From: Mytilinidion resinicola
Lineage: Eukaryota > Ascomycota > Dothideomycetes > Mytilinidiales > Mytilinidiaceae
Length of the DNA: 64,000 nt
Direction: 5' to 3'
NCBI RefSeq assembly: GCF_010093595.1
Contig: NW_022985445.1
Coordinates: forward strand, 1,337,787 to 1,401,786
The position numbers and the translations under genes were made by a program. Positions 13,036 through 25,227 of the stretch are shown in pieces. Positions within the stretch are counted from its first letter, which is position 1; every line of letters starts with the position of its first letter. The notes beneath the pieces were generated by a model. The model made no database searches. It was given only the letters and a program-made list of their open reading frames with translations, and was not told where the DNA came from.

Positions 13036-13728
13036 ACTACGCTATTGAAGATGGTGGCTGTTCGGGCCCGTCTCAGCGCTTTGGGGAGTATTCTTCTTTG
13101 GAGGCCCGCCACGAGAGGTTCTGCAGTTATTGTCGATTGACTGATTTCGTTTCGCATGACCCCTCTTCGAGGCGTGGCGTGTTGTTGCTGTGGGTAAGGG
13201 GTGCTGATGCTGACGATCCAGGCGTCGAGGATTTGTCTTTTTGCTTTCTCAAATCCTATCTGGTATGGTACTATATTACAGTAATTTAAGCCCAGAATCT
13301 AAAATCTCAACACTTATCCGCTGAGTTCATGAGTTGAGCTAGCCATTTAGGAGGCGGTGGTTTGCAAGATCTCTTGTAGGGCCTTATGAGTTTAATGGTT
13401 GATGCTGAGACAAGACCATGGATGATGACCTTAACGTGAAGACTGTGATAGGGACAATTCCAATATCCACTGTGAACTAGACATGCTTTGCAGCTTATTG
13501 CGGTGCAGTAACTATGCATTGATACCGCGTAGTGAATATCAACTAACATCTGGCACCTACAATGCTGAACTAACGTGGAGGCGTAGTGCTAAATTCGCTG
13601 ATGTGGAGAGAAGACTGAAAGTGGGAACAAATTTCATGCCCCGGTCGCTTAGCTTGACAGATTTCTATCCACCCCTCATTTTTTAAGGATATATAGTTAG
13701 AATTATTTTTTGCCGGGAACCCAAAAAC
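13036..13728. other. Intergenic region between MSH4 and the tRNA gene
   Basis: Contains the MSH4 3' flank. Small frames at 13307-13549 (-) and 13483-13686 (+) overlap antisense and look random. An AT-rich block (13680-13712) directly precedes the tRNA, which is common upstream of Pol III genes. Confidence 0.5.
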
Positions 13729-13764
13729 GGCCACGTGGCCCAATGGCAAGGCGCTTGACTACGA

Positions 13765-13773
13765 TCAGTCGAA
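13765..13773 (+). other. Canonical tRNA intron (position 37/38)
   Basis: Nine bases directly 3' of the base after the ACG anticodon. Removing them restores a 7-nt anticodon loop and the CTTGA/TCAAG stem. The boundary could shift by one base because flanking A residues are equivalent. Confidence 0.75.
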
Positions 13774-13791
13774 ATCAAGAGATTCCAGGTT

Positions 13792-13847
13792 GTAAGTAGC
13801 ATCTTCTGTGTGCGTCAAAGATTATATCACTAACAGCTTCGTCGTAG
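13792..13847 (+). other. Spliceosomal-type intron inside the tRNA T loop
   Basis: The 56-nt insert starts with GTAAGT, contains the branch-type sequence TCACTAAC 14 bases before its end, and stops with GTCGTAG. These are the same signals, and the same length, as the mRNA introns of neighbouring genes. Precise removal joins GGTT to CGACC and restores the universal T loop and B box. Confidence 0.8.
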
Positions 13848-13877
13848 CGACCCCTGGCGTGGTCATATCTCATTTTC

Positions 13878-13893
13878 TTTTTGTCCTTTTTTT
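13878..13893 (+). terminator. Pol III terminator (T runs)
   Basis: Runs of five and seven T residues follow the tRNA within 30 bases, as expected for Pol III termination. Confidence 0.6.
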
Positions 13894-14718
13894 ATCCCTT
13901 TTTGCACCAGGGTACATTCTTCCATCGAGAGAAACTAGCTGGTGATTATCAGACACCACGAATAGCGTCACGCTCCGATTTTTGATTCCCCGGCTCACTG
14001 CTGATGCAGGCAACCTTAAACCGTGACATTGTCATCTGGAGTCCTTCGAGATGCCTCGTGGCCAGAACCTACCGATGGACTTGACATACAAGCGCAGTCA
14101 AGAGTCGCCACTCTTCTATTTGGCTCGAGCAATCAACTCTGCTCGAACCACCCGACCGTCTAACGCGATATTGGTGTTTACCATCTCAAGTTCCTCGCAT
14201 GTTCCTTACAATTCCTGCTATCGTTGGCTATGCTCTCATTGCGCCACGCAAGCGACTCAGGTCTAGCAATCATTCTGGTATCGCTTCACCTCACACTTAC
14301 TCAAGTTTGATTGTGATACAGCTCGGAGATAGGCGCACAAGCAAGCAGCCGCATGTCACATACCGAACTCGAAATCGTGTTTGCTCTGAACCATACCACT
14401 CCTGATTCTAAAGTAAAGTCTTTCCACCGCTCCTCAACCACGAATGCTGCTGCAAAGGCGTCTTCAGATCTCACCGCCACCATTTGTTTGTCTGTATGCA
14501 ATCCAGTTCAGCAGTCACCGTGCGGTGCCAGTGGTTAAACATACAGCAGCAAATAAATATCTCCCAGCCCTCAGTTCATGGACGCATCTAGTTTTTCAAG
14601 TGCCTGGTGTCCTTCAAACTCGGTGACGGTTCGACGTCTTGCAGCCAAACCTTGAGTAAACACTATACAGCTCAGACTCCCTTCATTTCTCGTTTCTTTC
14701 TTTCTTTCTTTCTTGACA
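13894..14718. other. Intergenic region with a TTTC microsatellite
   Basis: No recognisable gene. A (TTTC)n tract of about six units lies at 14693-14715, immediately before the ATG of the small gene at 14719. Short frames at 14051-14266 and 14353-14538 overlap antisense frames and show no family features. Confidence 0.45.
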
Positions 14719-22546: not shown

Positions 22547-22555
22547 ATATAAATC
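22547..22555 (+). promoter_or_regulatory. Probable TATA box of the pheromone gene
   Basis: The sequence catataaat lies 150 bases before the start codon and 22 bases after the last CTATTGAG motif, followed by a pyrimidine-rich leader. Confidence 0.5.
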
Positions 22556-22696
22556 CTTTCTACGCTGCTCCTCGACTTCTGCTTGACCCAAATCATTCAA
22601 GTCCTTCTCTTCCGACAGACACCACTCATTACAGGAAGACGAACTCTTCATCGCTCACTTTTTACAACACAATCCCTCGATACCAATCCAATTAAC

Positions 22697-23386
22697 ATGA
22701 AGTTCACCGCCGTCATCGCTGCCGCCATCCTGGCTGCCAGTGCCCACGCTCTCGCAATCCCCAACCCGGATACTTACTGCCATCTTCCGAGACAGTCGTG
22801 CTCCAAGGAGCGACGTGAGGCTCTTCCGGAGCCCGTCGCTGTGGCAGGTAAGAAGACTTATGGTTGTCATCTCCCCGGCCAGTCTTGCAGCAAGGATAAG
22901 CGCGAGGCTGAGCCTATGCCCATTCCTGAGCCCGAGCCCGAACCCCTTCCCATTGCAGAACCTGAGCCTGAGGCCAGAAAGACTTGGGGCTGCCACCTCC
23001 CGGGTCAGTCTTGCAGCAAGAACAAGCGTGAGGCCGAACCGGTTGCGGAACCTGAGCCAGAGGCCAGAAAGACTTGGGGCTGCCATCTACCAGGACAATC
23101 TTGCAGCAAGGACAAGCGCGAGGCTGAGCCCGTGGCAGAGCCTGAGCCAAGAAAGACTTGGGGCTGCCATCTTCCGGGACAGTCTTGTAGCAAGGACAAG
23201 CGCGAGGCTGAACCTGTTCCGGAGCCTGAGCCTGAGGCCAGAAAGACTTGGGGTTGCCATCTTCCGGGCCAGTCTTGCAGCAAGGACAAGCGCGAGGCTG
23301 AATCTATCCCTGAGCCTGCCCCCAGAAGAAAAACCTACGGATGTCATCTTCCTGGTCAATCTTGCAGCAGGAAGGAAAGACGTTAA
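22697..23386 (+). CDS. ppgA: Alpha-type mating pheromone precursor, first repeat block
   Basis: Opens with a signal peptide (MKFTAVIAAAILAASAHALA). Then come seven copies of a nonapeptide core: one diverged CHLPRQSC and six CHLPGQSC, each closed by SKDKR, SKNKR or a variant and followed by EA-EP-VA-type dipeptides. The core resembles Eurotiomycete alpha pheromones such as the Aspergillus WCHLPGQGC type. KR is the Kex2 site; the X-Ala/X-Pro dipeptides suit Ste13-type aminopeptidase trimming; the dibasic RK or KK before TWG/TYG offers a second cut, so the copies here are of TWGCHLPGQSC or TYGCHLPGQSC type. The frame stops at 23384-23386, where the other copies have the Glu codon after KR. A second seven-copy block follows in another frame. 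The ATG at 22697 is chosen over 22583 because it starts the signal peptide. Confidence 0.9.
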   Translation: MKFTAVIAAAILAASAHALAIPNPDTYCHLPRQSCSKERREALPEPVAVAGKKTYGCHLPGQSCSKDKREAEPMPIPEPEPEPLPIAEPEPEARKTWGCHLPGQSCSKNKREAEPVAEPEPEARKTWGCHLPGQSCSKDKREAEPVAEPEPRKTWGCHLPGQSCSKDKREAEPVPEPEPEARKTWGCHLPGQSCSKDKREAESIPEPAPRRKTYGCHLPGQSCSRKERR

Positions 23387-24015
23387 GCTGATCCAATCTA
23401 GATCCTCTCCCGGCCCCGGAACCAGAAGCAGGTAAGAAAGCTTAGGTTGCCAATATGTCATCTTCCCGCAAGTCGTAACCCAATGTTCAATCAGATCCGT
23501 ACTGCCATCTGCCCGGCCAGTCTTGCAGCAAGGACAAACGCGAAGCTGAGCCTGAACCTGTTCCCGAACCCGACCCATACTGCCATCTCCCCGGCCAGTC
23601 TTGCAGCAAGGACAAACGCGAAGCTGAGCCTGAACCTGTTCCCGAGCCCGACCCATACTGCCATCTCCCCGGCCAATCCTGCAGCAAAGACAAGCGCGAG
23701 GCTGAACCTAAACCTGTTCCCGAGCCCGACCCATACTGCCATCTCCCTGGCCAGTCTTGTAACAAAGACAAACGCGAAGCTAAGCCTGAACCTGTTCCCG
23801 AGCCCGACCCATACTGCCATCTCCCCGGCCAATCTTGCAGCAAAGATAAACGCGAGGCTGAGCCTGTTCCCGAGCCCGAACCTGAACCTTACTGCCATCG
23901 CCCTGGTCAATCTTGCAGCAAGGAGAAGCGCGAGCCCGAGCCAGTTCCCGAGCCAGTTCCTGAGCCTTACTGCCATCTTCCTGGTCAATCTTGCAGCAAG
24001 GACAAGCGCGAGGAG
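22772..24015 (+). repeat. Coding tandem repeat array (14 pheromone units)
   Basis: Fourteen units of about 72-126 bases, most strongly conserved over the bases encoding CHLPGQSCSKDKR. Units of the second block are more alike at DNA level than those of the first, suggesting recent amplification or conversion. Confidence 0.85.
23387..23493 (+). other. Decayed repeat unit or intron between pheromone blocks
   Basis: This segment still resembles one repeat: it contains a stretch like CCGGAACCAGAAGCAGGTAAG followed by bases similar to the coding ...GGTTGCCA-TGTCATCTTCCCG of intact copies, but with stop codons and frame changes. It also contains possible splice signals (GTAAGA at 23434 and CAATCAG ending at 23494). 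Splicing at those signals alone would not bypass the stop at 23384. A weak donor just before that stop (GTTAAG, 23382) joined to 23494 would keep frame. The data do not decide between intron, decay and sequencing error. Confidence 0.55.
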
Positions 24016-24021
24016 AAGTAA
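23494..24021 (+). CDS. ppgA: Alpha-type pheromone precursor, second repeat block (no own start)
   Basis: An open frame with seven further copies, YCHLPGQSC six times and YCHRPGQSC once, each followed by SKDKR, NKDKR or SKEKR. The spacers are exact multiples of X-Ala/X-Pro dipeptides (for example EA-EP-EP-VP-EP-DP), so trimming would stop precisely at Tyr-Cys, giving a different N-terminus from block one. The period is 78 bases (26 codons) in the first copies, which are almost identical. The block ends REEK-stop at 24019-24021. There is no ATG or signal peptide in this frame, so it needs splicing from the first block, or it is a stranded remnant after a nonsense change. I list it separately for that reason. 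Confidence 0.7.
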   Translation, partial: DPYCHLPGQSCSKDKREAEPEPVPEPDPYCHLPGQSCSKDKREAEPEPVPEPDPYCHLPGQSCSKDKREAEPKPVPEPDPYCHLPGQSCNKDKREAKPEPVPEPDPYCHLPGQSCSKDKREAEPVPEPEPEPYCHRPGQSCSKEKREPEPVPEPVPEPYCHLPGQSCSKDKREEK

Positions 24022-25227
24022 ACCTCGTCACAAGGGCCTAGGCACAGGCATATAGCTGCCATCTGGTGCTTCATTCTTTTCTTCTACTATCCCCGGCACA
24101 TCACCGTACACCGACTCTTCCTTTCACATCAATACTTTTCCGACATCAGGCTCGAACATAGTCGACATGGGGACACATCCATTGTTTCTTGTTTGAGCGG
24201 GGCTGGCGTTTCTACCTCTGGATCTACTTGCGGAGTTTGGAGACTTTGAAATAGGCTAGCCTTTTTGTAGCATACCACTGGCCGGGGATACCTTTACTCG
24301 TGGAGATAACTGCGATTATTAACTTATATGTTCATCACTGTGCTATGCACTGCTTGACTTTTCTTGGAGCGTGATGGTTTGTGTAGTGTTCTGGCTTCGT
24401 TCAAGCTTTCGTGACTTCGCGTTGTGTGATTGATGACTTCGAATTGAATGTAGTTTCAAGTGACGTGAATTGTTGGTCTTTCTTGCTTTGCGAATCTGCC
24501 GTACAAAGCGCCACGGGGCTATTCAGATGTTGAACTTGGAATTTCGAAGGTGCTGCATCTACATGCGCGGTCCCTTCCTATGAATAAAGCGTCCGTGTGC
24601 GTGACACAGCAGAGACGCTAAACACAATACCTTATAGAATATCCGGCTCTTCCCTCCAAAGCAACATCGTGTCCTCTCCTTCTAAATCACGGAATATCAT
24701 CCACCTTTCTTGTCGTCTCGCCTGCAGCTGAGTGGCGTCACTGTCGGTCGTTTCCAATGTTAGATAAACTTGTGCGCAGCCGGTAACGTGACTAACTTCT
24801 TCGCATCTCAAACCCCTTCGCTTTCAACTATGCTCTAGAAACCCTTTAACATGTTTTTCAGTTGCTTTCTCTTGAATTTTCACCGCTCCCGCCTTAACAC
24901 ATCGAAGGGGTAAAGGGAAGCCCGACATGGTGGGTGCGTAGTTACGCTATGCTGCACGATCCAATAATGATTGCTCGATAAGCTACCGCAGGCTCCCGAC
25001 GGCGGGCATGAAGCTTGGTCTCCATTACGCCTAGCATCTCTCGACAGACCTTGGAACATGAGCCTGGCCTGGCCCGTGGCTATTTGCTGGTGACGTTGGG
25101 CGTGGTCCGGACCCACTTCGATTCCCTGTAGCTTCCCACGTTCGCTTTGTCGCAGGTATTACGACGCTTAAGTTTGCGCTCCCTTCTATCTCTTCATCTC
25201 TACCTTCAATCTGCCGCTGGGTTAAGC
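24022..25227. other. Intergenic region, no gene seen
   Basis: 1.2 kb holding the pheromone 3' flank and the DUF3405 gene promoter. A minus-strand frame at 24880-25116 is unconvincing. No repeats stand out. Confidence 0.5.

Follow-up and report, generated by a model that had tools for sequence, protein, structure and literature searches.

Candidate spliceosomal introns in the tRNA genes of a fungus, Mytilinidion resinicola, including one that splits the T loop of a tRNA-Arg(ACG) gene

Introduction

Pol III transcribes tRNA genes through their A and B boxes, and it is the tRNA endonuclease that cuts the canonical introns of these genes, at position 37/38. The usual substrates of the spliceosome are transcripts of Pol II. 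In textbooks, tRNA introns are left to an endonuclease and a ligase of their own, and GT-AG introns belong to the transcripts of Pol II. A tRNA-Arg(ACG) gene in a stretch of fungal DNA of 64,000 nucleotides (the window) raises the question of whether this division always holds. An earlier note had described in its T loop a 56-nt insert with the signals of an mRNA intron, next to a standard 9-nt intron at 37/38, and had proposed that the locus either needs both splicing machineries or was silenced by an intron gain. Here, we ask whether the insert is a spliceosomal intron, whether it stands alone in the genome, and what it would mean for the making of tRNAs in this fungus.

Materials and Methods

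Candidate loci were collected by BLAST with the window locus and then by an Rfam tRNA search, in which 63 of 1387 first-look candidates were scored. Further loci came from a pattern combining a branch site, an AG, and a B box, and from two B-box-plus-terminator patterns. The latter returned 136 rows, a site being repeated for each T run, from which 59 places were taken; with one more elsewhere, they gave 60 loci, the rest of the rows being sites already in the set or judged by eye not to be tRNA-like. Out of 155 loci, 125 were parsed (L001-L065 and L096-L155), while L066-L095 were left out as repeats of other sites, except two that were parsed later and are not tRNAs. L002, L051, L052, and L059 repeat L028, L053, and L134.

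A custom parser sought the best cloverleaf, allowing free introns of 38-110 nt anywhere and one intron at 37/38. Its first run, on 125 regions, ignored splice motifs save for a 0.01 GT/AG tie-break. The final catalogue was drawn from a second run with splice-signal bonuses and from hand placement by motifs, which supplied the second introns of L060, L096, and L147. The 42 uninterrupted rows represent 41 genes (L013 and L117 are the same gene), with L101 doubtful and the second tRNA of L012 outside the 42; together with 19 split genes, these 41 make up an inventory of 60.

Results

The window gene

The parser, nearly blind to splice motifs, placed the 56-nt insert exactly between T55 and C56 and the 9-nt intron at 37/38, confirming the earlier note on both counts (Table 1). 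The insert begins with GTAAGT (13792-13797) and ends with TAG (13845-13847), its last four nucleotides being GTAG. It fits in a single register; the exon bases on its flanks differ from the intron ends, and the ends cannot slide. When the exons were joined in silico, a cloverleaf formed with 20 of 21 stem pairs standard. To call the tRNA otherwise perfect, as the earlier note did, is slightly too strong: one pair is nonstandard, as is one in the second Arg-ACG gene of the genome. The gene scored 44.5 in the parser, compared with at most 30.5 for 125 reversed regions.

Standard tools did not report the gene: ARAGORN called no tRNA at the locus, and Rfam gave no match in the window at gathering scores, nor any at the locus when E values as high as 1 were admitted. 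A group I/II or other catalogued RNA element was considered for the insert and rejected, as no Rfam family matched. The fold of the whole pre-tRNA was not more stable than that of its shuffles (z -0.52). A TTTT begins 7 nt after the 3' end of the gene.

Table 1 Coordinates of the features, in the window unless a contig is given
Feature	Position	Strand	Basis
TATATA, 39 nt 5' of the tRNA start; possible TFIIIB/TBP site	13690..13695	+	
tRNA-Arg(ACG) 5' exon, positions 1-55, containing the 9-nt 37/38 intron	13729..13791	+	Sequence, tRNA parser
A box, TGGCCCAATGG	13736..13746	+	
Canonical-position (37/38) tRNA intron, 9 nt, TCAGTCGAA	13765..13773	+	tRNA parser
Split B box, first part, GGTT	13788..13791	+	
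Spliceosomal-type intron, 56 nt, between T55 and C56	13792..13847	+	Parser, controls, genome search
Branch-site-like CACTAAC in the 56-nt intron	13828..13834	+	
3' exon, C56 to discriminator base 73; starts with B box remainder CGACCCC (13848-13854)	13848..13865	+	
T runs, Pol III terminator-like: TTTT 13873-13876, TTTTT 13878-13882, TTTTTTT 13887-13893	13873..13893	+	
Two adjoining reading frames with repeats	22553-24055	+	
Second tRNA-Arg(ACG) gene (L028)	C16:258046-258168		BLAST
U5 snRNA gene (L140)	C23:114400-114733	-	Rfam RF00020
U5 snRNA gene (L151)	C23:260230-260561	-	Rfam RF00020

Elsewhere in the window, CHLPGQSC recurs many times in two adjoining reading frames, with KR and EA pairs between the repeats, and we take these frames to resemble fungal alpha-type pheromone precursors. 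Pfam gave no match in the first frame. The second matched Sel1 with 33.5 bits against a cut-off of 30.7, with no single stretch passing, and this score is probably an effect of the repeats.

Split tRNA genes in the genome

The window gene is one of at least 19 tRNA genes with 24 spliceosomal-type inserts in the 47.1-Mb, 44-contig genome (G000) that contains the window (Table 2). Five genes carry two such introns and the remaining ones carry one. The split genes account for 19 of the 60 tRNA genes found, about a third, in a search that was partly aimed at split genes. Their parser scores range from 35.8 to 51.3, above the maximum of 30.5 on reversed regions, and their stems contain 10 mispairs in 399 pairs (counted on the parser placements throughout, L060, L096, and L147 included), compared with 22 in 882 for the uninterrupted rows, in which one gene was counted twice. 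For L096, the parser read the anticodon as CGT and ARAGORN as Leu-CAA after hand placement; the latter reading was adopted. For the second intron of L147, the parser gives ends other than those placed by hand.

Table 2 Split tRNA genes and the positions of their inserts
tRNA	Insert position	Locus
Arg-ACG	55/56	Window gene
Arg-ACG	52/53	L028
Arg-TCT	53/54	L057
Arg-CCG	17/18	L058
Ala-TGC	10/11	L026
Gly-TCC	32/33	L048
Gly-GCC	28/29	L108
Ile-AAT	28/29	L062
Val-CAC	26/27	L154
Asp-GTC	Variable loop	L042 and L049
Ser-AGA	52/53	L053
Ser-GCT	52/53	L056
Ser-GCT	30/31 and variable arm	L060
Leu	18/19 and 34/35	L096
Leu-AAG	D loop and 30/31	L134
Leu-TAA	22/23	L142
Thr-TGT	24/25 and 51/52	L105
Lys-CTT (parser) or Ile-TAT (ARAGORN, hand placement)	14/15 and 26/27	L147

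Gene finders recovered this set incompletely. At the unspliced loci, ARAGORN found nothing in 12 of 19, Rfam detected 8 of the 19 split genes at gathering score, and a covariance model built from the genome's own tRNAs recovered them only in part. ARAGORN accepted 18 of the 19 genes once spliced, but it also passed 7 of the 19 without splicing and, when excisions were made at random, 115 of 380. For 6 of the 18 accepted spliced genes, L001 among them, its isotype or anticodon differs from that of the parser. Among the uninterrupted rows, the parser placed a 37/38 intron in 41 of 42, the longest being 72 nt; the second tRNA in L012 has one of 75 nt according to ARAGORN. A genome search for further inserts at 55/56 with the pattern CTAAY..YAG|CGANYCC returned 10 sites, namely the window gene and nine non-tRNAs. 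Two weak Rfam matches to viral families at L144, below gathering score, were set aside as a chance effect of a hairpin.

Splice signals

All 24 introns are 49-57 nt long (mean, 52.9), with GT-AG ends in 21, GC-AG in one (L134), and GA-AG in two (L053 and L056). In the nearly motif-blind parse, with the 19 genes trimmed to their limits, GT-AG ends were obtained at 14 of 22 inserts, the other 8 lacking them, and each of 25 decoy end pairs was obtained at 0-2 of 21-22 inserts. In 20 of the 24 introns, a script detected CTRAY placed so that the A lies 10-15 nt before the 3' end, and a 21st branch site, TACTAAT in L062, was recognized by eye, having been masked in the script by a second CTAAT. Two introns have TTAAC, a motif that occurs twice in L096, and no clear branch site was seen in the second intron of L105. 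Five loci (L042, L048, L049, L060, and L062) had been picked by a pattern of branch site plus AG; no locus was picked by its 5' end.

In size and spacing, the inserts resemble putative mRNA introns of the same genome. Seven putative mRNA introns in the window, predicted by joining reading frames (eight frame pairs, one dropped as dubious), are 46-61 nt long, against 49-57 nt for the inserts, and their branch A precedes the end by 10-14 nt; the script required GT, AG, and CTRAY, and only the agreement in length and spacing is informative.

In the Ser genes L053 and L056, the T-stem intron at 52/53 begins with GAAAGT and not with GTAAGT. GA-AG splicing at these two sites is possible from their sequences, and L053 (Ser-AGA) is apparently the sole gene of its kind.

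Isoacceptors found only as split genes

BLAST with the window locus identified a second tRNA-Arg(ACG) gene, L028, which has no 37/38 intron and an intact B box and is split at 52/53 by a 51-nt insert of the form GTAAGC...CACTAAT...CAG. A comparison of the two spliced Arg-ACG genes shows 7 differences over 72 sites, comprising three compensated pairs (3:70, 5:68, and 49:65) and one T-loop base. Counting the copies of this gene, which the earlier note had suggested, thus yielded one more, also split, at a different site.

Genome DNA searches with spliced queries (E<=10), which detect close copies only, returned no uninterrupted copy of Arg-ACG, of Ser-AGA, or of Arg-TCT. Since the Arg-TCT query missed an Arg-CCT gene (L027) despite a common 18-nt stretch, a diverged uninterrupted copy could escape such searches. 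In the inventory of 60 genes, eight isoacceptors are present only as split genes: Arg-ACG, Arg-CCG, Arg-TCT, Ser-AGA, Ser-GCT, Gly-TCC, Ala-TGC, and Val-CAC. The inventory is incomplete, with no Met, Pro-AGG, Pro-TGG, Val-AAC, or Ser-TGA gene among the 60, and the split-only status is therefore firm just for the three isoacceptors that were searched. All three, Arg-ACG, Arg-TCT, and Ser-AGA, are hard to replace under standard wobble rules. Of the two readings in the earlier note, a locus needing both machineries or an intron gain that silenced it, the former is much strengthened by these results, with both Arg-ACG genes split and 17 further split genes beside them.

Transcription signals

The A box of the window gene is contiguous, and its B box is split by the intron, as the earlier note had stated, into GGTT and CGACCCC separated by 56 nt. 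No B box matching 10 or 11 of 11 positions was found in 13500-14300. When an insert lies at 52/53 or 53/54, the intron-final AG and the exon leave GTTCGA, a usable B box; an insert at 55/56 does not, and the window copy is therefore the likeliest of the set to be weakly transcribed. A TTTT starts at most 33 nt downstream in all 19 split genes, a set partly chosen by its T runs, and 7 of the 19 have a TATA-like motif upstream.

Some other small RNA genes of this genome have their B box outside the transcript. Five uninterrupted U6 genes (L100, L102, L149, L150, and L152) carry TATATA 32-33 nt upstream of the conserved TTCGGGCATTTGG core. Behind the T run, 118-129 nt downstream of this core, lies a B box, via which the five genes were found. 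The same layout is seen in two U5 snRNA genes, L140 and L151 (60.1 and 62.2 bits, respectively), with TATATA 33 nt upstream, a 3' T run, and, roughly 20 nt past the RNA, a GGTTCGA B box. Judged by this layout, Pol III may make U5 in this fungus; both genes were found via the B-box-plus-T pattern, and the layout could be different at other U5 genes.

A dispersed family of at least 10 copies (L110, L111, L116, L118, L119, L122, L124, L126, L131, and L132) has a TATATA-like motif (by eye, in all but L116), then GTACTAACCAGCAGGAACCTTGCCCTAGTGGCGTCGGCCCC..., a T run, and an external B box. The six copies scanned (L110, L116, L118, L119, L122, and L131) gave no Rfam match, and the family is a candidate RNA of Pol III type.

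Origin of the introns

The earlier note had raised an introner-like insertion, which found no support for this intron: a genome DNA search with the 56-nt intron (E<=10) matched only the query itself. When the 24 introns were compared with one another, the homologous Asp pair reached 84% identity and the next best pair 67%. In the Asp pair, the introns are identical at 49 of 58 positions, the 5' exon stretch, which includes the variable 37/38 intron, at 57 of 65, and the 3' exon at 26 of 26; given these values, the pair was not used as proof of selection.

Paralogues with an empty site were found for Gly-GCC (L020), Ile-AAT (L016), and Asp-GTC (L097), with identities, 37/38 introns included, of 77 of 83 columns for Gly-GCC and 81 of 84 for Ile-AAT. 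By eye, a G precedes the intron in 14 of 24 cases and follows it in 11, with both in 7.

Discussion

On the sequence evidence, the 56-nt insert is likely a genuine spliceosomal intron (GT-AG, U2-type-like) of a tRNA gene transcribed by Pol III, and at least 23 more are present, with at least 19 genes affected in all. Pol III would transcribe the window gene, with the upstream TATA helping in this copy, and stop at the T run. The nuclear spliceosome would then remove the 56-nt intron through its mRNA-like 5' site, branch site, and 3' AG and thereby restore the T arm, after which the tRNA endonuclease would cut the 9-nt intron, followed by the usual joining. We place the T-arm intron first, in the nucleus, because end processing, export, and cutting by the endonuclease should all work poorly on a pre-tRNA without a T loop. 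A lone pseudogene or a chance insertion was rejected on the recurrence of the inserts and on the reversed-region and decoy controls.

Other readings of the split genes have to be weighed. The inserts might be ectopic bulge-helix-bulge introns, which the tRNA endonuclease would cut as it does in red algae and archaea, with GT-AG accidental; ectopic tRNA introns, some in the T arm, are known from Cyanidioschyzon (PMC9602550; PMC3978253). We consider this highly improbable, as it leaves the GT-AG enrichment and the branch sites unexplained. A strict 4-bp central helix was seen in none of the 24 inserts and, among the canonical introns that served as positive control, in just 1 of 39, so that this test does not discriminate. 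The split loci might instead all be pseudogenes with mRNA-like introns, unexpressed or spliced just within longer Pol II transcripts, and the usual coupling of spliceosomal introns to Pol II speaks for this. It is improbable in our view, given stems as intact as those of ordinary tRNAs, T runs right after the 3' ends, and three isoacceptors for which no uninterrupted close copy was found. An assembly error or chance could be invoked with a single genome at hand, and yet 19 loci on many contigs with consistent signals, together with reversed controls that never exceeded 30.5, make this next to inconceivable.

Two further alternatives concern the window copy and the origin of the introns. The window copy may be silenced or dying, its transcription having stopped when the intron split the B box, with L028 supplying the tRNA. 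Transcription of this copy is indeed doubtful, because it has no contiguous B box and none nearby, and the second gene exists with its B box intact. However, the splice signals and exons are intact, the TATA at -39 and the T runs are present, and the three double compensatory changes relative to L028 keep the stems paired, although they may predate the intron. The external B box of the five U6 genes, which were found via it, suggests that its position may be flexible in this fungus, though none was seen at the window gene. On balance, silencing is possible but rather unlikely, and the genome-wide phenomenon would stay true under it; we infer that the window copy itself is active. As to origin, a burst of introner-like transposable elements would account for many gains in one genome and for their narrow length range, and has little probability in our estimation, since the window intron, which the search covered, has no second copy at E<=10 and only the homologous Asp pair is alike among the 24. 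Single gains, for example by reverse splicing, would fit better than a transposing family.

The reading of the inserts as spliceosomal introns of Pol III genes has partial parallels. An mRNA-type intron has reportedly been described in the U2 gene of Rhodotorula. For fission yeast, the accessible part of one paper documents an mRNA-type intron in the U6 gene, a Pol III gene (PMC10484740). These cases are alike in that an mRNA-type intron, removed by the spliceosome, sits in a short noncoding RNA gene; their hosts, however, are parts of the spliceosome, with the U6 intron near the catalytic site, whereas the hosts here are many unrelated tRNA genes, sometimes with two introns and with internal promoter boxes split. 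Ectopic spliceosomal introns in a structural RNA made by a polymerase other than Pol II are also found in the nuclear rRNA of lichen-forming ascomycetes, in Pol I transcripts, and yeast also removes them, according to the available text of PMC8527467; those genes are repeated, whereas some of the tRNA genes here were found in one or two copies.

Among tRNA introns, canonical nuclear ones at 37/38 are matched by the 9-nt insert of the window gene, whereas the 56-nt insert sits at 55/56 instead. Compared with the canonical type, the 49-57-nt inserts mostly carry GT, CTRAY, and AG and occupy 10/11, 14/15, 17/18, 18/19, 22/23, 24/25, 26/27, 28/29, 30/31, 32/33, 34/35, the variable region, 51/52, 52/53, 53/54, and 55/56. 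The nearest tRNA case is that of the ectopic introns of red algae (Cyanidioschyzon merolae) and cryptomonad nucleomorphs, alike in their unusual positions and in the presence of several per gene; those introns are described as bulge-helix-bulge or, in the nucleomorph, as often lacking a defined motif (PMC3978253; PMC9602550), whereas mRNA-type spliceosomal signals are seen here. Intron insertion into tRNA, rRNA, and mRNA genes is discussed in PMC11782384, in whose available part the tRNA introns are archaeal-type or group I. The open-access matches listed include no earlier report of spliceosomal introns in tRNA genes; the subscription literature could hold one. Introner elements resemble the present introns as spliceosomal introns spreading through a genome. 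They are multi-copy and alike, whereas the search with the window intron yielded no second copy.

If a third or so of the tRNA genes found carry mRNA-type introns, the textbook division of the splicing machineries is broken. From what the genes look like, making some tRNAs probably requires the spliceosome in this fungus. That the spliceosome is obligatory for tRNA maturation, with Arg-ACG, Arg-TCT, Ser-AGA, and probably Ser-GCT present only as spliceosomally split genes, seems to us fairly likely; decoding of those codons would then depend on the splicing of Pol III transcripts, in some genes with endonuclease splicing of a second, canonical intron afterwards. Split genes escape tRNA finders such as ARAGORN and Rfam, so similar cases may hide in other genomes. 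Paralogues with and without an intron, side by side, offer a natural record of intron gain, and if the present reading is true, tiny Pol III RNAs can be processed by the spliceosome as well, and the decoding capacity of this fungus depends on splicing.
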